A stretch of DNA of 36,892 nucleotides from Bryobacteraceae bacterium (GTDB taxonomy: Bacteria; Acidobacteriota; Terriglobia; Bryobacterales; Bryobacteraceae), in contig JASIAM010000076.1 in NCBI GenBank assembly GCA_030041985.1, forward strand, positions 1 to 36,892, read 5' to 3'. Each line of letters starts with the position of its first letter. Position 1 is the stretch's first letter. The position numbers were made by a program, and so were the translations under genes. Below, piece after piece: positions 15,668-25,870 of the stretch. The notes beneath the pieces were generated by a model that was not told where the DNA came from, searched no databases, and saw only the letters and a list, made by a program, of their open reading frames with translations.

Positions 15668-18600
15668 TCATAGCAGGCGTTTGTACAGTTTCCCGTACTC
15701 GCGGGCAGAGCGTTCCCACGAATAGTCCGCCGTCATGGCTTGCCGCATCAGCCGGGCCCAATCTTCTTTTCGCCGGAAAACCTCGAGAGCACGGTCAATC
15801 GCCGCCAGCAATGCTGCGGACTCGAATTCGTCGAAGACAAAGCCGTTTCCTTGTTCAGTCGCCGGATGGAAATCTTGGACACTGTCTTTCAACCCTCCGG
15901 TGGCGCGGACAATGGGAATCGCTCCATATTTCAAACTGTAGAGTTGATTGAGACCACTTGGTTCATAGAGCGACGGCATGAGAAACATGTCCGATCCGGC
16001 TTCGATGCGGTGGGCCAGGCCTTCATCAAAGCCGATGCGAACGCCGATTCTTTGCGGGTTGCGCTGTGCCGCCTTCTGAAAGAAGTCCTCGTATTGCCGG
16101 TCGCCCGTTCCCAGCAAAATGAATTGCACATCGCGCCGCAGCAGGCCGTCGAATGCTGATACGAGAAGATCGAATCCTTTCTGCGACACTAACCGGGATA
16201 CCATGCCGAGAAGCGGCAGATGGGGATCGGGCGTGAGATGGAAAGCCTGCTGCAAATCGGCTTTACAGACCAGTTTCCCGGCAAGATTTTCGGGACCGTA
16301 ATTCTGTGCGAGGAACCGGTCGGTTTGCGGGTTCCAGGCCGCGTAGTCGGCTCCATTCAAAATACCGCTCAGATCGGCGGCGCGTGCCCGAAAAAAACCG
16401 TCCAAACCAAATCCATACTCAGAGGTCTGAATTTCGCGGCTATAGGTTGGACTTACGGTAGAGATGGCATCGGCAAAGGCGAGGCCGCCTTTCAGAAAGT
16501 TGATGTCGCCGTAGAATTCGAGGTGGCGCGGGGTGAACAGCGCTTCGTCCAGGCCGAGGAGATTCCAATATTGCGGAGGGAACAAGCCCTGATAGCCCAG
16601 GTTATGAACCGTGACCACTGTCCGCACGGAATTAAGATCGGGGTACAACTCCGGCTGGGCTTTTAGAAAGGCAACTGCCAGAGCAGACTGCCAATCGTGC
16701 GCGTGAAGGATGTGAGGGGCGCCCACGCGAGGTAGAACCTCCAGAACGGCCCGTGCAAAGAAAATGAACCGCTCGGCATTGTCGGGATAATCGCCTTCCG
16801 GTGTGCTATAGAGGAACGGCCGCTCGAAATAGCGGTCCGAGCGGATGAAGTAGACCGGAATGTCATTTCCCAGCGTGGCGGTGAGGACGGCGCCTTCCAC
16901 GCTCGACGCGCCTATAGGGACATGGAAGCGAATTCCGGTGTCCCGCGCCACTGCTTGTTCCAGCACACTACGATAGGCCGGCATGATCGCTGTGACCCTA
17001 TGGCCCAGCGAGCGCAGGGCGGCGGCGAGCGAGCTCACCATATCGGCCAAGCCGCCAGTCTTGGCGAAGGGCACCAGTTCCGGAGAAGCCATGGCGATAG
17101 TGAGAGGCTCTCGCGCGGAAATAGCGAAACCGCCCGGAAGGGGAGAACCGGCAATCATTTCGGTTTTCCCGTTGGCCGGCGCAAACGCCCGGATGACAGG
17201 CATTCCGGCAAAGATGTTGTCCTGATTTTCGAGAGTCTCAAGCCAAGGTTCGTCAATAGTTCCGGCCTCCACCTGCGCCTTGAGCTTGTGCAACCGCGAT
17301 AGATGACTTTTGATCTGCCCGGTTGCGTAGTCCTTCATTTCGCCGGAATCCATCATGAAGGCCCAATCGCTCGATTGCGCCAGGAGCAATTCGCGGCCGG
17401 CCTGGTGGAGCGCGCGGAGTTGCAGCCCTGTAGCCTGAGGGTATGCGGCACACAGCTTTTCCACCATTTCGGCGCCCGCCTGCAAATGGCGGCAGATCCA
17501 ATCGTTGTGACCGTTCAACCACACTTCGTTGAAACCGTTGCGGCCCCAGCTCGAAAGAGAAGGCGTGGCCACCTGATTGGCCGGGTAGTCCTGCAGGTAT
17601 TCGGAAAGGGTGACGAGGCGCAGGCTGGATTGATCGAGCGCGATTTTGCGGATCAGGTAATCGAGCCAGCGCGGCCCCTCGAACCACCAGTGGCCGAATA
17701 GTTCTGCGTCATAGGGAGCCACGATGATGGGCTTGCGGTCCATGCCGGAAGCGAGGCCGGCCACTTGCCGGATGCGCTCGGAGAGAAAATGCTCCGCGTG
17801 GGCGGCCGCTTTGCGCTCTGCCCATTCGGGAACGTACGGTTGCTTTTGGTCCCCCGTCCCCGTGATCCGGTAGTATTTGAAACCGGTATCGATGCGGATG
17901 CCATCGGGGTGAATGTAGGGCCCGATATAATCCAAATCCAAGTCAAAACCGATGTCGCGATAAAAGTCGCGGTAGTCGAAATCGCCCGGGTAGCCGACTT
18001 CAGAACTCCAGACCTGGCGCGACGAATCCGGATCGCGCCCAAACACGGCCAGCCCGGAAGGGCAGGCGAGGGGAGCATAAACACCATAATGGGGCCGGCG
18101 ATCGGCCCGTGTGATGCCATGCGTTTCGAGGACCGTGTAGCTGATGCCGCTCTCGCGGAGAAGCTCGTCGAGACCGGGGTAGTAGCCGCACTCCGGCAGC
18201 CAGAAACCTTGGGGCGCGCGTCCGAAGGTCTGCATGTAGTGCTCAACTCCAAGGCGGATCTGCGCCCGCACGGCCGATGGGTTGACGGAGAGCAACGGGA
18301 GATAGCCGTGGGTAGCAGCGCTGGCGATCACCTCCACTTTGCCGGTTCGCTGGAAGCGATCGAGTGCGCCCACCAGGTCCTTGCCATAGCGATTCACGAA
18401 GCCATCGTGAACGCGCAGAAAAAGCCGCTGGTAGAGCAGCGCCAGCGGATGGAACTCGGGGAGGGAGCGCGTGCGGGCCACCTCCTTTCCGGCAAGCTCG
18501 ATCGTCCTTTCGAGCCGCTTCAGATAGCGTGCCTGAAGGGGAGGGTCGAGTAACATCAATGCGAGCGTAGGCGTGAGAGAAATGGTAAGGCGGAAATCGA

Positions 18601-18757
18601 TGCCATCTGCCAGGAGTCCATCGAGAATCTGAAACAGAGGTACGTAGGTTTCGGTGATGGCTTCGAAAAGCCAGTTTTCCTCTAGGAATTCCTGATGTTC
18701 CAGATGGCGAATGTAAGGAAGATGGGCATGCAGGATGAGAGCCAGGTAACCGTCCAT
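15668..18757 (-). CDS. Fusion of GH57 1,4-alpha-glucan branching enzyme and GT5 glycogen synthase
   Basis: A 1029-residue bifunctional-looking cytoplasmic protein. Residues 1 to about 525 are a GH57 branching-enzyme module: LILHAHLPYIRH, the nucleophile Glu189 in GFWLPECGYYPG, and the acid/base Asp350 in APYDAELFGHWWFEGP. A DUF1957-like helical segment follows. After a linker (about 525-548), residues 550-1029 form a full-length GT5 glycogen/starch synthase: KTGGLAD at 566-572 for ADP-glucose binding, HAHDWQSALA, TVHNLGYQGLF, NGADYAAWNP and EPSGLNQLYSLKYG (Glu932) of the retaining GT signature. GT5 length matches free-standing GlgA (about 480). The predicted chemistry is chain elongation from ADP-glucose plus alpha-1,6 branching on one polypeptide. 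It starts 11 bases after the DUF4912 gene, so is last in its operon. All catalytic residues named are seen; bifunctionality itself is inferred. Confidence 0.93.
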   Translation of the reverse strand: MDGYLALILHAHLPYIRHLEHQEFLEENWLFEAITETYVPLFQILDGLLADGIDFRLTISLTPTLALMLLDPPLQARYLKRLERTIELAGKEVARTRSLPEFHPLALLYQRLFLRVHDGFVNRYGKDLVGALDRFQRTGKVEVIASAATHGYLPLLSVNPSAVRAQIRLGVEHYMQTFGRAPQGFWLPECGYYPGLDELLRESGISYTVLETHGITRADRRPHYGVYAPLACPSGLAVFGRDPDSSRQVWSSEVGYPGDFDYRDFYRDIGFDLDLDYIGPYIHPDGIRIDTGFKYYRITGTGDQKQPYVPEWAERKAAAHAEHFLSERIRQVAGLASGMDRKPIIVAPYDAELFGHWWFEGPRWLDYLIRKIALDQSSLRLVTLSEYLQDYPANQVATPSLSSWGRNGFNEVWLNGHNDWICRHLQAGAEMVEKLCAAYPQATGLQLRALHQAGRELLLAQSSDWAFMMDSGEMKDYATGQIKSHLSRLHKLKAQVEAGTIDEPWLETLENQDNIFAGMPVIRAFAPANGKTEMIAGSPLPGGFAISAREPLTIAMASPELVPFAKTGGLADMVSSLAAALRSLGHRVTAIMPAYRSVLEQAVARDTGIRFHVPIGASSVEGAVLTATLGNDIPVYFIRSDRYFERPFLYSTPEGDYPDNAERFIFFARAVLEVLPRVGAPHILHAHDWQSALAVAFLKAQPELYPDLNSVRTVVTVHNLGYQGLFPPQYWNLLGLDEALFTPRHLEFYGDINFLKGGLAFADAISTVSPTYSREIQTSEYGFGLDGFFRARAADLSGILNGADYAAWNPQTDRFLAQNYGPENLAGKLVCKADLQQAFHLTPDPHLPLLGMVSRLVSQKGFDLLVSAFDGLLRRDVQFILLGTGDRQYEDFFQKAAQRNPQRIGVRIGFDEGLAHRIEAGSDMFLMPSLYEPSGLNQLYSLKYGAIPIVRATGGLKDSVQDFHPATEQGNGFVFDEFESAALLAAIDRALEVFRRKEDWARLMRQAMTADYSWERSAREYGKLYKRLL

Positions 18758-18768
18758 AAGCGGTTCGC

Positions 18769-19722
18769 TTACGGTTGCACGCCGGCGCGCGAGCGCTCGG
18801 AAGGGGAAGACGGGAGGCCGGGGAAGAAGGCGTGTTCGGCGAGGGCAGTGGGATCGAGCGGAGAGCCTGGGTGTTCGAGCGGCGCTGGCGCTCCGGTGGG
18901 CAGCCCAGCGCTACTCGACCAGTCGGCAGGGAATCGATCTGGTGCCGCGGGGGTTGCGACTTCGAAGGGCGCTCCCGCGCGGGAACGCCATGGCCGCAAC
19001 GCGTAGATCTCCGCGAGCTTCTGTTCGAGAACTTGAGCGGCATCTACACGTCTGGGAGCGCGCGCGATCCGGGGCGCGGCCGGCGCTTGCTCGCTTTGGC
19101 TCGCAACTGGCGTAGGCGCCGCGGCGGCCTCAGCAGAGCCTTTAGCGGGACCCACTTCACGCTTGTTTTCATCCCGCACAGGCTCGGCGTTCTCTGCAAG
19201 CCGCGCCACCGGCCAGGCCCGCGGAGTCTGCACCTGATTGGAACTAGCCAGTGGGCGGAACTCGCCCGCCGCGGTTTTCACGCCCAACTCCGCGTAGTAG
19301 GACTTGGCGGGACTCCCCACGTTCACATACCAGTTCCGTGTCCGCAGGTCGACATCTACCTCGAAGGAGCGCTCGGAGGCCACGTGGAAGCGCAACACGG
19401 CGGACGCAGTTTCGCGGGGAAGGCTGGTAATGCCGATATCCCAATAAGCGTGGATCAGATAGGGATCGACCACCATCAGAGTGACTCGGGGAGGCCCGTA
19501 GGAATCGGGCAGTTCGTCCCGATCCGCCGCGGGTGGGAGCGACGGCGACGTGTATTTGGCCCGTTCGATTCTCTCCCGGCCGTTCGAAAGAGAGGCGGTG
19601 CTCATCGAATTGCGATGTCCCAGACCGCGGCCTGCCGCACGCAAGGCAGCCCACATACCGGCTAGCCGGGTCTTCAAAGCCAGGAATAAGCTGGGCCACA
19701 TCCCTCCCGATTTGCCGGCCAC
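18769..19722 (-). CDS. DUF4912-domain protein
   Basis: A 317-residue protein whose central part (about 75-170) is a clear DUF4912 domain: RVTLMVVDPYLIHAYWDI, RNWYVNVGSPAKSYYAELG and GEFRPLASSNQVQTPRAWP. The fold has been likened to carbohydrate-binding beta-sandwiches, and the domain is often encoded near alpha-glucan genes; its role is unproven. The N-terminal 70 residues are basic with an amphipathic or weakly hydrophobic stretch. The C-terminal 140 residues are Ala/Pro-rich and probably disordered, apart from a helical LEQKLAEIYALRPW segment. The start is a GTG at 19722, seven bases after the zinc-protein stop; internal ATGs at about 19701 and 19605 are alternatives. It lies 11 bases upstream of the GH57-GT5 fusion, so a scaffold or glucan-binding role is plausible. 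Confidence 0.85.
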   Translation of the reverse strand: MAGKSGGMWPSLFLALKTRLAGMWAALRAAGRGLGHRNSMSTASLSNGRERIERAKYTSPSLPPAADRDELPDSYGPPRVTLMVVDPYLIHAYWDIGITSLPRETASAVLRFHVASERSFEVDVDLRTRNWYVNVGSPAKSYYAELGVKTAAGEFRPLASSNQVQTPRAWPVARLAENAEPVRDENKREVGPAKGSAEAAAAPTPVASQSEQAPAAPRIARAPRRVDAAQVLEQKLAEIYALRPWRSRAGAPFEVATPAAPDRFPADWSSSAGLPTGAPAPLEHPGSPLDPTALAEHAFFPGLPSSPSERSRAGVQP

Positions 19723-19994: not shown

Positions 19995-21488
19995 TCAGAA
20001 ATCGTGTTGCAGGATGGCGGTGGCCCGCCGGCAAAGCTCGCGCGCGTAATCGGTCCACACGCCCGTGCCCCAATACCGGAAGCAACTGGTCTGGGTCATC
20101 AGTAAGTAGTATACGGCGTTCCGGTAGCGATATTCCGACGGATTTACGTCCCGCGTCTTTTGGGCGAACAAGGCGCTCACTTGTTCGATCGGCCCCAACA
20201 CATCACCGTAGCCTTTTACCCAGGAGAGATTATTGGTCCAGCTCCCGCCTTCCACGTTGAAACGGTTGTCCTGCTTGCGCAATTCCTCGATCACTTCTTC
20301 GAGAGCGGCCCCTTTGTCAACGGCGTCCGCCCGGCCCTGGAGCCGGTCCCAGATGCGCTTCTGCATGATGGGCTGGATGGCGGGGAAGTTTCGCTCCTCG
20401 ACTCCCATGGCATCGAGATATTCCAGGTACTCAGTGACATTCATGGGAGGCGTATCGGAACCGGACGCTTCCCGCATGACTTCCATGTACTTGGAGGGAA
20501 ATTCGTTCATCATGACGCCGCCATTTTCACCGTCCGCAATCTGGGCACAAACCGGGGGAACGGATTTGCCCGCCACGGGGGAACGATTCAAGCCCCTGGC
20601 CTCGTAATAAGGTTGCATTTGCGCTACCAGCTTGGTGTCACTGCCCTGGGTCTTCACGATGGCGGTGATGGTTTGGGTTTGGCCCGCGGAATTCCGCGCC
20701 ACCAGCAGATGCGGCAGATGCGGTTCGCGAACGGGACCGCCATCCTCCACACGTTCTATAGAATGCTCCTGCACCAGTACCCAGCGGAAACCACTATCTT
20801 TGAGCGTGCGGACGAATTCGTAGGCGACATCGGGATGATTGGGCAACGCCATTTCCGGCGGGGAAAATCCACGCACCCGGCTAAGTGCTTCGAGGCCGAA
20901 CATGGAAGCGAAATGATGCTGCCAGGCGCGCACGTGATGGCGAAAATCCTGCACGGGGGTGGAAGGCGCGACGGCGTGGCCCCACGCGGTGCCCAGCCAC
21001 TCGACGCCGCGCCGGTATGCGGGATCGCGCGTGATGCGTTGTAAAGCTTCGATCACGTCGTGAAGGCCCATGGTTCGCAGGCCGTGCAGCAGGCATCCGG
21101 AATAATCGAGCATGATGCGCGGCTGCTTCCCTTCGCCGATCAATTGCGGAATGAACTCCCCCATGCGCTTATAGCACCAGGCGAAGATGCCGGCATTGTG
21201 ACGGGCTTCGTCGTTGCCGAAATCGCGCATGAACTGAAGATTGCAAATGATCGGCGCCGTGCCGAGGTCATGGCTACCTGCCGGGATGAGTGGCTGATGC
21301 ATATGGAGAGCATTGGCGAAGCCGCTCCGGACGCGGCCAAAATCGATGCCACACTCCGGCAGATAGAAGGGACCACTGCGGGCCATAGCCTGAGTGATAG
21401 CGTCCTCAGATCCGCACAGGTTCGGAACGCCGTCCACATATTCCGGCAAGCTGACCGATCCGATTTCGGGCAAAGTAGTGGTGCTCAT
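19995..21488 (-). CDS. GH57-family glycoside hydrolase of unassigned specificity
   Basis: A 497-residue protein distinct from the GH57 branching module downstream. GH57-like motifs are seen in order: ANALHMHQPLIP (motif 1, about 59-69), GTAWGHAVAP (motif 2, about 166-175), RGFSPPEMALPNHPD with Glu212 in the nucleophile position (motif 3), and IADGENGGVMMNEF with Asp319 in the acid/base position (motif 4). A late W-rich segment (FRYWGTGVWTDYAREL) follows. GH57 contains amylases, 4-alpha-glucanotransferases, amylopullulanases and branching enzymes; this sequence matches none well enough to name. The ATG at 21486-21488 is chosen; an ATG four codons earlier is possible, and the open frame to 21722 runs into the opposite gene. 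It is first in the GH57, zinc protein, DUF4912, GH57-GT5 run. Confidence 0.85.
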   Translation of the reverse strand: MSTTTLPEIGSVSLPEYVDGVPNLCGSEDAITQAMARSGPFYLPECGIDFGRVRSGFANALHMHQPLIPAGSHDLGTAPIICNLQFMRDFGNDEARHNAGIFAWCYKRMGEFIPQLIGEGKQPRIMLDYSGCLLHGLRTMGLHDVIEALQRITRDPAYRRGVEWLGTAWGHAVAPSTPVQDFRHHVRAWQHHFASMFGLEALSRVRGFSPPEMALPNHPDVAYEFVRTLKDSGFRWVLVQEHSIERVEDGGPVREPHLPHLLVARNSAGQTQTITAIVKTQGSDTKLVAQMQPYYEARGLNRSPVAGKSVPPVCAQIADGENGGVMMNEFPSKYMEVMREASGSDTPPMNVTEYLEYLDAMGVEERNFPAIQPIMQKRIWDRLQGRADAVDKGAALEEVIEELRKQDNRFNVEGGSWTNNLSWVKGYGDVLGPIEQVSALFAQKTRDVNPSEYRYRNAVYYLLMTQTSCFRYWGTGVWTDYARELCRRATAILQHDF

Positions 21489-21575
21489 AGCAATTTCCAT
21501 TGTGACGGATTTGGTGTTGCAGAATCTCCCCGACCCCGGCCAAAGGGGTGGCCGATGACAAGCTGAGCGGCTACC

Positions 21576-21863
21576 ATGAAAGAAAATACTATTATGGATC
21601 GTCTTGACCGCATCGAAGCCAGTATCGAACGCCTCGCCCAACAGCACGAGGCTGAACTGCACGAAATCCGCGAACTCTTCAAGGAAATGCTGAAGCGACA
21701 CGACGACAGCCACCGTATGCACGAAACGTGGCTACTTGACCATGACTATGTATTGCGCGAGGTCACAGCCGCCATCCGCGCCCTCACTGCCGCTCAGCAA
21801 AACACCGAGCACACGCTGCAAGTCTTAATCGACTCACTCCGCAGCGGCAACGGCCGTAAGTAA
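21576..21863 (+). CDS. Small coiled-coil protein, unknown function
   Basis: A 95-residue charged protein without cysteines, signal peptide or membrane helix. Heptad-like spacing of Leu/Ile runs through most of it (DRLDRIEASIERLAQQ, LHEIRELFKEMLKRHD, LREVTAAIRALTA), which predicts a coiled coil. An alternative ATG lies six codons in, where the heptads begin. Ribosome sites are weak for both. It is encoded between the GH57 and GT4 genes but on the opposite strand. I do not recognise a family, though coiled-coil proteins of this style are common in acidobacterial genomes. Confidence 0.6.
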   Translation: MKENTIMDRLDRIEASIERLAQQHEAELHEIRELFKEMLKRHDDSHRMHETWLLDHDYVLREVTAAIRALTAAQQNTEHTLQVLIDSLRSGNGRK

Positions 21864-21928: not shown

Positions 21929-23086
21929 TCAGCTTTGATACACGCGCATGGTTTGCTCCGCTACGGCGTCCCAGGTGAATGCCGTTTCCGCGGCTAAGCG
22001 GCCATTGCGCCCCATCCACCGGGCCCACTCGAAATCCGTGAACAGAGTGCCGAGGCCCCACGCGATGGAATTAGCGTTGGCATGGACCTTCAAGCCATTC
22101 ACGTTGTGCCAGACGAACTCTTCCGGCCCTCCGTTGCGCGTAGAGACCACCGGCTTGCCGGCGCTCCAGGCCTCCAGAATCACGATGCCAAAAGGCTCGT
22201 TGCGGCTGGGCACGCAGACCACGTCGCAGGACCGGTACAGGTCCGCCAGAGTGCCGTTGGTCTGGAAACCGACAAAACGAGTAGCGTGCGCCACACCCAA
22301 CTGCTGGGCGCGGGTCTCAACGGGTTTACGCAGCTCGCCTTCGCCGGCAAAAATGAATTTGGCGCGCGCGTATTGTTTCAAGATGGCGGGGACGGTTTCC
22401 ATTAACAGATCGGGCCCCTTTTGATGAGCCATGCGGCCCACAAACAGCACCGTCGGATCCGTCGGCCCTATCGCATATCGCCTTTTGATCGCGGCCGGTT
22501 CAATAAATCCATCGTAGTTGCGAACGTTTACGCCGTTATAAACGACCGAAATCTTCGGCTCCGGGACTTCGTACATCCACTGGACTTCGCGCTGCAAAGC
22601 ACCCGACACCGTAATCACGCGATCCGCCCACACGGTGCCAGCGCGCTCCTGGTAGCGCACGCGCTCGGATTGTCCGCTGCAGAACCGGTTGCCACAACGG
22701 CCATATTCAGTGGAATGAATAGTCAGAATGCCGCGGCGCTCGCGCTGCTGGCGAATCCAGATCATGGCGTTCGCGGCCAGCCAGTCATGTGCGTGGATTA
22801 CGTCGAACGCTCCGCCGTAATTTTCCGCCGCAAACACGTAATCGACGAAGGAGCGGCACATGTTATTCACTTCATCCACAAAGTTGGCGTTCAGGTCAAA
22901 AGGGCAGCGGTGATAGTGCACGCCATGGATGCGGTCGTACTTGGCTTGTCCGCGGCCAATGCGCGTGAACACGTGGACTTCATGGCCTTGGCGCTCGAGC
23001 GCGGCAGCCAATTCCGTGACGTGGGTAGCGATTCCGCCCACCGGTATGGAATGCAAAGACTCCCAACTTAAAAATGCAATTTTCAT
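21929..23086 (-). CDS. Glycosyltransferase family 4 (possible glucan synthase-type)
   Basis: A 385-residue retaining GT-B enzyme. The N-terminal Rossmann domain has the acceptor/donor loop VGGIATHVTELAAAL, and HAHDWLAANA carries the conserved His-Asp. The linker has VVYNGVN, and the C-terminal domain has TVLFVGRMAHQKGPDLL and the E-x7-E signature EPFGIVILEAWSAGKPVVS. GT4 enzymes use nucleotide sugars or sugar phosphates; some act as ADP-glucose-dependent glucan or maltose-1-phosphate synthases. Its position in a glucan block makes such a role attractive but unproven. GGAG lies about ten bases before the ATG. It diverges from glgB across a long spacer. Confidence 0.88.
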   Translation of the reverse strand: MKIAFLSWESLHSIPVGGIATHVTELAAALERQGHEVHVFTRIGRGQAKYDRIHGVHYHRCPFDLNANFVDEVNNMCRSFVDYVFAAENYGGAFDVIHAHDWLAANAMIWIRQQRERRGILTIHSTEYGRCGNRFCSGQSERVRYQERAGTVWADRVITVSGALQREVQWMYEVPEPKISVVYNGVNVRNYDGFIEPAAIKRRYAIGPTDPTVLFVGRMAHQKGPDLLMETVPAILKQYARAKFIFAGEGELRKPVETRAQQLGVAHATRFVGFQTNGTLADLYRSCDVVCVPSRNEPFGIVILEAWSAGKPVVSTRNGGPEEFVWHNVNGLKVHANANSIAWGLGTLFTDFEWARWMGRNGRLAAETAFTWDAVAEQTMRVYQS

Positions 23087-23605
23087 GAAGGCAATTCTCC
23101 AGCGCGGCGCATCGCCCGGTGAAGGGCTTTCGGCAAGGGCTACTTATTCCGGTAGCAGTTTAATTGTTGCGTTACCGTGACAGGGGGTTTGGGCTGCGGC
23201 GGCACAACTTCCGCGGCCGCGGCTCCAGGCGCGCCCACTCGTGGACAAAATCAGTTCAGGCATATCGGGCGTTTTTGATGTATTTCCGCTACAAAACCAC
23301 GCCAATTCTCGAACTAGGAGAGTGATGCCACAGAGAGCCAGCGGGATTCGACAAACTGGCAGAATACTTCTGACCTCGGGACTGTGAGAGAGATTCATGG
23401 TTCTCCACGGTCATCTTCCGGATTGTGGAAGAACACACATAGTTCGTTCCCTCTTAGTGCTTACTCCAGCATTGTGTCATAGCAACAGTGAGCTGGCAAA
23501 GAAAAAAAGCTTACTAATGATTTGAGGTGTTTCTAATTGCTCAGTTGTGGAGAAGACTCAGTTCTGTAATGCTGAGATTTTCGATCGCATAGGAGAAGAT
23601 TGCAC
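23087..23605. other. Divergent intergenic region between the GT4 gene and glgB
   Basis: About 520 bases without a convincing gene; a short 84-codon frame (23144-23398, minus) lacks coding character. The half next to glgB is clearly richer in A+T than its surroundings. It holds a 12-bp palindrome CCGCGGCCGCGG (23211-23222), a hairpin TCTTCC/GGAAGA (23414-23432), a direct repeat CTCAGTT at 23540 and 23557 (17 bases apart), and an inverted repeat CTCAG/CTGAG (23557-23576) just before the ribosome site AGGAG at 23591. It is a likely control region for both genes, but no exact promoter can be named. Confidence 0.5.
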
Positions 23606-25870
23606 ATGTCATCCGTTATCGAGCCGATGTCTCACCACGCAAGTACTGCTAACGCCAGCGCGATTGCGGCCATTGCCGGCGGTTATCACAACTCCCCTTT
23701 CGATATCTTAGGGATGCATCCTGTAACGGTGGGTGGCAAGGCTTCGCTGGCAATCCGCACCTTCCAACCGCAAGCCTTGAGCGTTAACGTGCACCGCGCA
23801 GGAACGCAGTATCCGATGGAGCGTGTCCATCCCGCAGGCTTTTTTGAAACGGTATTTGCGGGTGAAACCGAATTCTTTCCTTATGTCTTTGCCATTACAC
23901 TACACGAAGCTCCCGGATCTCCCCAAACCCATCACTATGAAATCGAAGATCCTTATCGTTTCCCGCCGGTCCTCAGCGATTTCGATCTACATCTCTTTAG
24001 TGAAGGAACACACCTGCGGTTGTATGAGAAACTGGGCGCGCAGTTGATGGAGCACCGGGGCGTCGAAGGGGCGTGCTTTGCGGTATGGGCGCCGAATGCG
24101 GAGCGGATCAGTGTGATTGGCGGCTTCAACCAGTGGGATGGGCGGCGCCATCCTATGCGGCCGAGGGGTGCGTCCGGCGTTTGGGAAATCTTCATTCCCG
24201 GGATCCAGCAGGGTGATCTGTACAAATTCGAGGTGAAGACGCGCTACCAGGGCTACATGGCCACTAAATCGGACCCCTGCGCGTTTGCCGCGGAATTGCG
24301 TCCCAAGACGGCATCGGTGGTCTGGGACATGGATCGCTATCAGTGGCACGACAGCGAATGGATGGCAGCACGCCGGGCGCGGCAGAGTTTCGAAGCGCCG
24401 CTGGCGATTTATGAGGTGCACCTGGGTTCGTGGAAACGCGAGCCCGATGAGCAATACGGCCACCGCTGGCTCAGCTACCGGGAACTGGCCCAACAGTTGG
24501 TCCCCTATGTTAAGGAGTTGGGCTACACTCACATTGAATTAATGCCCATAACCGAGTATCCTTTCGATGGCTCCTGGGGCTATCAGACAGTTGGTTACTT
24601 CGCACCAACGTCCCGTTACGGTACGCCAGATGATTTTCGCCACTTTGTGGATCGCGCGCATGAGTCGGGCCTGGGCGTAATTATCGATTGGGTTCCGGCG
24701 CATTTCCCTAAGGACGCACATGGCCTTTCGTTCTTTGATGGGACTCACCTGTACGAACATGCGGACCTGCGCAAGGGCGAACATCAGGATTGGGGGTCAC
24801 TCATTTATAACTATGGGCGTAATGAAGTCCGGGAGTTCTTACTCTCCAGCGCGCTGTTCTGGCTGGATAAGTACCACATCGATGGACTGCGTGTGGATGC
24901 CGTGGCTTCCATGCTTTACCTGGACTATTCGCGTAAGGAAGGTGAGTGGATCGCCAACCAGTACGGAGGCCGGGAGAACCTGGAAGCAGTAGCATTTCTC
25001 AAACGCTTCAATGAAGTCGTGCACCAGGAGTACCCCGATGTACTCACGTTTGCCGAAGAGTCCACCGCCTGGGGCGGTGTCTCGCGGCCAACCTACGTCG
25101 GCGGCCTGGGCTTTGACATGAAGTGGAACATGGGTTGGATGCACGACATGCTCGAATACATTGGCAGAAATCCGGTTCATCGGCGCTATCACCATCACAA
25201 CCTCACTTTCTCGCTCTTATATGCATTCACCGAAAATTTCGTGCTGCCTTTGTCACACGACGAAGTGGTGCACGGCAAGGGGGCATTACTGGCCAAGATG
25301 CCGGGTGACTACTGGCAGCAATTCGCGAACTTGCGGGCACTGTACGGCTATATGTATGCGCATCCGGGCAAAAAGTTGCTTTTCATGGGCGGCGAGATCG
25401 GGCAATGGAACGAGTGGAGTCACCGGTGGGAGGTTGAGTGGGTGCTTCTCTATTTCGACGCTCACCGGCAAATTCAGGAATATGTGCGTGCTTTGAACCG
25501 GCTTTACCGTGAGCAGCCGGCTCTCTATCAGGTGGACTTCACCTGGAACGGTTTCGAATGGATTGACTTTCACGACGTCGATAATAGTATTGTTTCTTTT
25601 CTGCGGCGCGCCAAAGACCCGAATGACTTCGTGGTGGTCGCGGCTAACTTCACACCGGTCCCCCGGCACGGCTATCGGCTCGGTGTGCCGGAGGGAGGAT
25701 ACTACCGGGAACTACTGAACAGCGATTCCAGCTATTTCGGAGGCGGCAATCTCGGCAATAACGGCGGGGTTCCTTCGGAAGCAATCCCCTGGCAGGGCCG
25801 GCCGCACTCCATAGTGATCACGGTGCCGCCGCTGGCAGTGGCGTTTTTCAAGCGGGAAAACCGATTTTGA
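23606..25870 (+). CDS. glgB: 1,4-alpha-glucan branching enzyme, GH13
   Basis: A 754-residue cytoplasmic enzyme that cuts alpha-1,4 chains and rejoins them as alpha-1,6 branches. An N-terminal GlgB N1 domain comes first (about 25-120, [13 protein letters not shown]). A CBM48 domain follows (about 150-250, [20 protein letters not shown]), then the GH13 barrel: [31 protein letters not shown], the nucleophile Asp431 in [17 protein letters not shown], Glu484 in [12 protein letters not shown], and [11 protein letters not shown]. The 53-residue gap between the two catalytic residues equals that of E. coli GlgB. The start is the ATG at 23606 with AGGAG ten bases upstream; an in-frame TTG two codons earlier is less likely. 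This is the second branching enzyme of the block, on the opposite strand to the GH57 one. Confidence 0.97.

Follow-up and report, generated by a model that had tools for sequence, protein, structure and literature searches.

The window analysed here is the whole 36,892-nucleotide stretch of contig JASIAM010000076.1 (NCBI GenBank assembly GCA_030041985.1, Bryobacteraceae bacterium, Acidobacteriota). A single reading frame on its minus strand (15668..18757, ATG to TGA, 1029 amino acids) encodes a GH57 branching-type domain followed by a GT5 glycogen synthase domain. A preliminary description made from the sequence alone had proposed this domain order at these coordinates, and both were confirmed, with the two halves at full length. 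The GH57 domain (17207..18757, residues 1-517) was recognised by Pfam as PF03065 (6-396) and PF09210, the helical BE_C domain (424-518; 108 bits, cut-off 25); its nearest PDB sequence was AmyC of Thermotoga maritima (2b5d; residues 2-517, E 5.7e-143). The GT5 domain (15671..17104, residues 552-1029) matched PF08323 (554-790), PF00534 (847-993) and the NCBIfam model TIGR02095 (glgA; 542 bits, cut-off 328), with E. coli GlgA (2qzs, 39% identity) as nearest PDB sequence. Both domains are joined by a linker (17105..17206, residues 518-551) that is poorly conserved in an alignment of six fusions and predicted to be partly disordered. About 34 residues separate the end of the GH57 match from the first GT5 strand, rather than the 25 or so estimated before. 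Along the frame, G+C was lowest at the second codon position in 14 of 14 blocks, linker included.

The catalytic residues named in the preliminary description were all found at the positions claimed and were invariant in the six aligned fusions: Glu189 (codon 18191-18193) and Asp350 (codon 17708-17710) in the GH57 domain, and the KTGGLAD motif at 566 (Lys566, codon 17060-17062) and Glu932 (codon 15962-15964) in the GT5 domain, all on the minus strand. His12, Cys190, Trp357, Trp404, Trp413, Ser463 and Asp464 were likewise invariant in the GH57 half; roles of the GH57 positions were assigned after the relevant passages of PMC6616209. Glu189, Cys190 and Asp350 align with E185, C186 and D349 of AmyC, with which the GH57 half shares 44% identity over 512 aligned residues, the nucleophile, the acid/base and the cysteine. 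A cysteine next to the nucleophile is described as a feature of branching enzymes (PMC6616209). At the catalytic loop no gap separates the window protein from AmyC, and it is 10-12 residues shorter than 5wu7, TK1436 and TT1467. The long flexible, tyrosine-bearing catalytic loop by which PMC10346327 delimits a looped 'true' group is thus absent, and by sequence the GH57 half is of the short-loop form represented by AmyC. According to the same source, 92% of GH57 branching enzymes lack this loop and its adjoining strands. AmyC is a free enzyme, whereas the GH57 domain of the window is fused to GT5.

Invariant positions of the GT5 half were Lys566, Gly568, Gly569, Asp572, His718, Asn719, Asn801, Arg855, Lys860 and Glu932; all are active-site positions. 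Glu932 corresponds to Glu377 of E. coli GlgA, the position at which the E377A entry 3cop differs. With TIGR02095 over its cut-off and the KTGG and Glu377-equivalent motifs present, the GT5 half was classed as a GlgA. Active-site motifs are shared with bacterial GlgAs (E. coli 2qzs, Agrobacterium 1rzu), which are free enzymes and carry EPCGL at this glutamate; EPSGL is found there in 4 of the 6 fusions and EPCGL in the other 2. From its family and its kept active site, the GT5 half would transfer glucose from ADP-glucose to non-reducing ends.

An AlphaFold2 model of the fusion, built on a 68-row alignment, had a mean predicted local distance difference test score (pLDDT) of 92.3 and a predicted template modelling score (pTM) of 0.60. 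Both halves, whose linker and relative orientation the preliminary description had marked for structure prediction, folded well. Using VIA-align 2, model residues 1-530 were superposed on 2b5d (Z 47.4, 512 aligned, 1.8 Å) and residues 552-1029 on 2qzs (Z 50.6, 467 aligned, 1.6 Å). Linker residues 531-545 had pLDDT below 50, and the mutual orientation of the domains was predicted without confidence. We read the model as two rigid domains connected by a flexible, string-like linker, a predicted tether and not a fixed channel. In-frame ATG codons lie in or near the linker at residues 519, 534 and 556, of which only 556 is conserved; no strong ribosome site was seen by eye. A start at 556 would cut the first GT5 strand, and we consider an internal start of the synthase unlikely.

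Continuous GH57-GT5 frames were present in five further genomes, representing 4 genera, 3 families and 2 classes, at 61-71% identity. Two belong to the genus of the window (G001, 69%; G003, locus L006, 66%, where the contig ends after residue 939 with Glu932 still covered), one to the same family (G199, 71%), one to another family of the same class (G097, 64%) and one to another class of the phylum (G461, 61%). In G040 both halves were found at 71% in two overlapping frames, with a linker length difference relative to its nearest relative G199; G674 holds the synthase half only (64%), cut by the contig start. Genomes were drawn at three levels, and the draws overlap. In the family draw 5 of 237 genomes reached 1e-150, namely the window's own, G001, G003 and G199 with continuous frames and G040 with the split one. 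In the phylum draw this threshold was reached by 42 of 396, of which the window and G461 had a continuous frame spanning the two halves; the other matches were mostly free GH57s or free GlgAs. The eight of 399 genomes reaching 1e-170 in the class draw were the window's own, G001, G003, G040, G097, the G674 fragment, and G689 and G670 with free GH57s. Continuous fusions occurred in 1 of 38 genomes of G461's class and 1 of 11 of G097's family. The GH57-GT5 fusion is rare, diverged to 61% and scattered.

These frames bear on whether the window frame is an artefact, in which a sequencing or assembly error merged two genes. Such an error would be in keeping with the two overlapping frames of G040 and with the free GH57 of G689. 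It is practically refuted by the five continuous frames in other genomes, and the second codon position stays lowest in G+C through all 14 blocks; we regard an artefact as extremely improbable.

Other phyla were covered solely by a search of genome contigs with peptide patterns (six short peptides, 35 loci, not exhaustive), in which none of the 35 loci held a GH57-GT5 frame. Among plasmid records 555 matched, none covering 80% of the query at a single site. Three loci are recorded for their layout. In G574 (L095 / L107:7317-10406), one of the phylum-draw matches, a GlgA gene adjoins that of a distant GH57 (32%) in one frame with a single stop between them, and such an arrangement could give rise to a fusion. 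A 1184-residue frame in a Myxococcales metagenome-assembled genome (MAG; L055:521-4072) has GT5 at 706-1148 and no Pfam match before residue 706, and a Helicobacteraceae MAG (L054:5929-9069) has two different GlgA genes in tandem.

Constraint was estimated from the G040-G199 pair, the closest one and the only one without silent-site saturation; the other three pairs had dS above 1 and their ratios were set aside. For this pair the ratio of nonsynonymous to synonymous divergence (dN/dS, NG86) was 0.055/0.441 in the GH57 half and 0.077/0.393 in the GT5 half, which indicates that both halves are under constraint. With the catalytic residues kept across genera, neither domain looks catalytically dead; a dead domain would, according to the preliminary description, have refuted it.

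In the GT5 tree (LG+G4, quick search; 55 of 56 rows after overlapping loci were dropped, further repeats filtered), nine fused-type rows, including one duplicate, formed one clade (100 SH-aLRT, branch 0.39), separate from the ordinary GlgAs found in G001, G003, G040, G199 and G097. The duplicate is the G461 fusion synthase, entered twice, and the clade is unaffected by it. In the GH57 tree (56 of 64 rows after overlapping loci were dropped), seven fusion rows, G040 included, and three free GH57s (Nitrospiraceae L033, G689 and G670) formed a 100/100 clade of ten. The 'one change' to fusion on this tree was reckoned only against the GT4-fusion rows, with the three free GH57s (L033, L138 and L139) inside the clade. 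In genomes with a free GH57 of the fusion kind (G689, G670, G405 and G476), GlgAs were found at 44-45% identity only. The distribution reflects either a single joining, after which the synthase half was lost in some cases, or several events.

Upstream of the fusion gene, 11 bases away and on the same strand, lies a gene for a DUF4912 protein (18769..19722, minus; PF16258) predicted to form an FN3-like beta sandwich. Residues 21-110 of its model had pLDDT block means of 91-98, and its best match, to fibronectin-type domains, had Z 10.8 (90 aligned, 2.5 Å). Beyond it lies a second GH57-family protein (19995..21722, minus; PF03065), for which no PDB sequence relative was found at E 0.001. Homologues of this protein mostly begin near its residue 75-91, and its true start, by this comparison, is probably near 21458. 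Next come a GT4 glycosyltransferase (21929..23086, minus; TIGR02149 161 bits, under the cut-off of 302) and, divergent, a GH13 branching enzyme GlgB (23600..25870, plus; NF003811 1035 bits against 741, TIGR01515 971 against 464).

Neighbours were counted at seven loci, the six fusion loci and the split G040. DUF4912 adjoins GH57 in all seven and a second GH57 is nearby in six (G461 being the exception). GT4 was found in four (window, G001, G199 and G097); the contig of G003 ends before that position. An alpha-glucan phosphorylase lies between GT4 and the second GH57 in G199 and G097. With a hidden Markov model of the DUF4912 neighbours, DUF4912 was detected just upstream on the GH57 strand in 21 of 31 free-GH57 loci against 0 of 34 free-GlgA loci, or in 17 of 27 without L071, L072, L138 and L139, whose genomes had supplied training rows. 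The model did not detect the DUF4912 that Pfam places in the GH57 frame of L094; most of the loci concerned extend only 1.5 kb to either side, and genomes that are related do not count as independent. DUF4912 and GH57 share one frame in G411 (L146:1-1938) and G451 (L145:2050-4662), over the Pfam cut-off, and perhaps in G427 (L144:1500-3953), below it. From this association the DUF4912 protein is probably a partner of the fusion. The only paper found under the term DUF4912 in the literature was a cotton transcriptome.

A second kind of fusion was found in Bacillota, where 11 of the 35 peptide-pattern loci (L034-L041, L043, L051 and L052; Paenibacillus and others) join GH57 to GT4. The GT4 half was identified by blastp in all 11 and by Pfam in the 3 scanned. 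These genes resemble the window fusion in domain order, in a related GH57 half (37-46%) and in having DUF4912 upstream (11 of 11). They differ in the second half, which is GT4 and 28-34% identical to the stand-alone GT4 encoded in the window cluster, whereas that of the window is GT5; in the GH57 tree their origin is separate. At the Asp350 column 9 of the 11 have Asp, and L039 and L043 have Pro. L052 lacks Ser463 and Asp464 in this alignment, perhaps through misalignment, and carries a long insertion in the loop region; hence not all 11 are loop-less. Each of seven Paenibacillus loci carries a pair of distinct GH57 genes of this type. We know of no study of the Bacillota fusions, and the literature search returned no paper on them.

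Other glycogen genes were examined in 13 genomes, the window's own included. GlgC was over cut-off in all 13 and GH13 GlgB in 12. The own genome has two GH13 GlgB matches over cut-off, one of them in the cluster of the fusion. The fusion is its sole GlgA over cut-off. The idea that it is the sole synthase was dropped on account of a 39-residue piece encoded at one end of contig C72, which is 56-69% identical (over 25-39 residues) to four ordinary GlgAs and 41-44% to three fusions; judged from this piece, an ordinary GlgA is almost surely present. Ordinary GlgAs also occur in G001, G003, G040, G199 and G097, and a divergent GlgA lies next to the fusion in G461. Beside this second GlgA and the fusion, G461 encodes an alpha-glucan water dikinase-like protein (L103:37-3552, 1172 amino acids); starch-like phosphorylation of the product is conceivable in that genome. 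G002, of the window's genus, had no GlgA match at 1e-10; it is rated 100% complete with 5% contamination and has GlgC and GlgB.

Taken together, the fusion is probably a two-headed glucan enzyme. Its C-terminal head would lengthen chains, and its AmyC-type head, by analogy with short-loop relatives, would cut an alpha-1,4 chain and move the piece partly to O-6, creating a branch, and partly to O-4 or water. The flexible tether would hold both heads on one polymer, such that the transferase would encounter newly lengthened chains at a high local concentration, and may make up for a weak acceptor grip of the loop-less GH57. The neighbouring FN3-like protein would probably assist. Such an enzyme would supplement the ordinary GlgC-GlgA-GlgB set as an accessory system and yield a glucan with its own chain profile. 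We consider it rather likely that the two heads both act on one and the same glucan. Judged by its short-loop relatives, the N-terminal half is probably a branching enzyme, though a weak one with side reactions. The earlier proposal that the fusion links elongation directly to branch frequency is therefore retained in part: the single polypeptide, the full-length halves and the conserved catalytic residues agree with it, and the reservation concerns the short-loop GH57, a form whose branching is weak and mixed with other activities, and the disordered linker. Because the own genome also has two GH13 GlgB matches and the ordinary-GlgA fragment, the fusion probably does not set branch frequency alone.

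Several observations weigh against a two-headed elongating and branching enzyme. The loop-less T. maritima enzyme branches weakly, with 10.5 mU/mg on amylose against 480 or 550 (both values are printed) for the looped enzyme of T. kodakarensis (PMC10346327). The fusion is found in only four continuous copies and one split copy among the 237 family genomes. The frame of G040 is interrupted at the linker, but its two halves have been retained under constraint, and covalent joining may be dispensable in that genome unless the break is an assembly error. The free GH57 of G689 lies inside the fusion clade as sister of the fused G097 (98/90). An alternative is a GH57 half that chiefly trims and redistributes chains in the manner of an amylase or 4-alpha-glucanotransferase, with branching left to GH13 GlgB and the fusion controlling chain length and primer supply. 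AmyC, whose short loop it shares, spends up to 30% of its activity on hydrolysis (PMC6616209), among three GH57 enzymes compared, the loop-less one of T. maritima showed the most alpha-1,4 transfer (PMC10346327), and of the two GH13 GlgB matches in the own genome one stands in the same cluster. Against a mere trimmer stand the branching-type Cys190, kept in 6 of 6 fusions, the BE_C domain and the 8.5% of alpha-1,6 bonds in the glucan made by AmyC (PMC6616209); we judge this alternative unlikely.

Silencing of one half by the fusion, leaving a plain synthase or transferase with a silent passenger, has a precedent in Waddlia, among the chlamydial GlgA-GlgB proteins of Waddliaceae and Criblamydiaceae, which also unite synthase and branching enzyme in a single chain (PMC7935935). 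In that one studied synthase-branching fusion, which also counts against two active heads, the synthase is N-terminal, the GH13 GlgB half was inactive in the assay, and one copy has a premature stop. In the window fusion the order is reversed, with GH57 N-terminal and GT5 C-terminal, and both sites appear intact; the N-terminus of the branching half is free, both halves retain their catalytic residues at 61-71% identity, and dN/dS is low in both, in the one unsaturated pair, which includes the split G040. We think a silent half quite improbable, less probable still than trimming.

The authors of PMC7935935 state that no other synthase-branching fusion had been reported. Fusions named in the review PMC11046441 are GlgB-MalQ and TreS-Mak, with no GH57-GT5 fusion in the places examined. 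Our literature search, by titles and the opening of abstracts, found none; subscription papers were mostly outside it, and database entries may exist. Compared with the chlamydial case, the novelty would lie in another GH family, the opposite order, two sites that appear intact and conservation across two classes.

The seams observed (DUF4912-GH57 in some genomes of the window's phylum, GH57-GT5 in the window and GH57-GT4 in Bacillota) invite a tentative generalisation, which we hold to be possible and short of likely. An FN3-like DUF4912 protein, a loop-less GH57 and a glucan synthase may form a three-part unit that has been welded at different seams more than once, tethering taking the place of the acceptor loop and making an elongate-and-branch machine of an otherwise weak and leaky GH57. 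For Petrotoga, which has two branching enzymes, what the GH57 one does is left open in PMC6629080. The GT5 fusion, the DUF4912 neighbour and the second fusion with GT4 tie loop-less GH57 enzymes to chain synthesis. The fusion offers a single construct in which one mutation each could uncouple elongation and branching, and a single molecule could elongate a sugar chain and branch it as well. If the three-part unit exists, many GH57 'branching enzymes' of unclear role would act only in such complexes.

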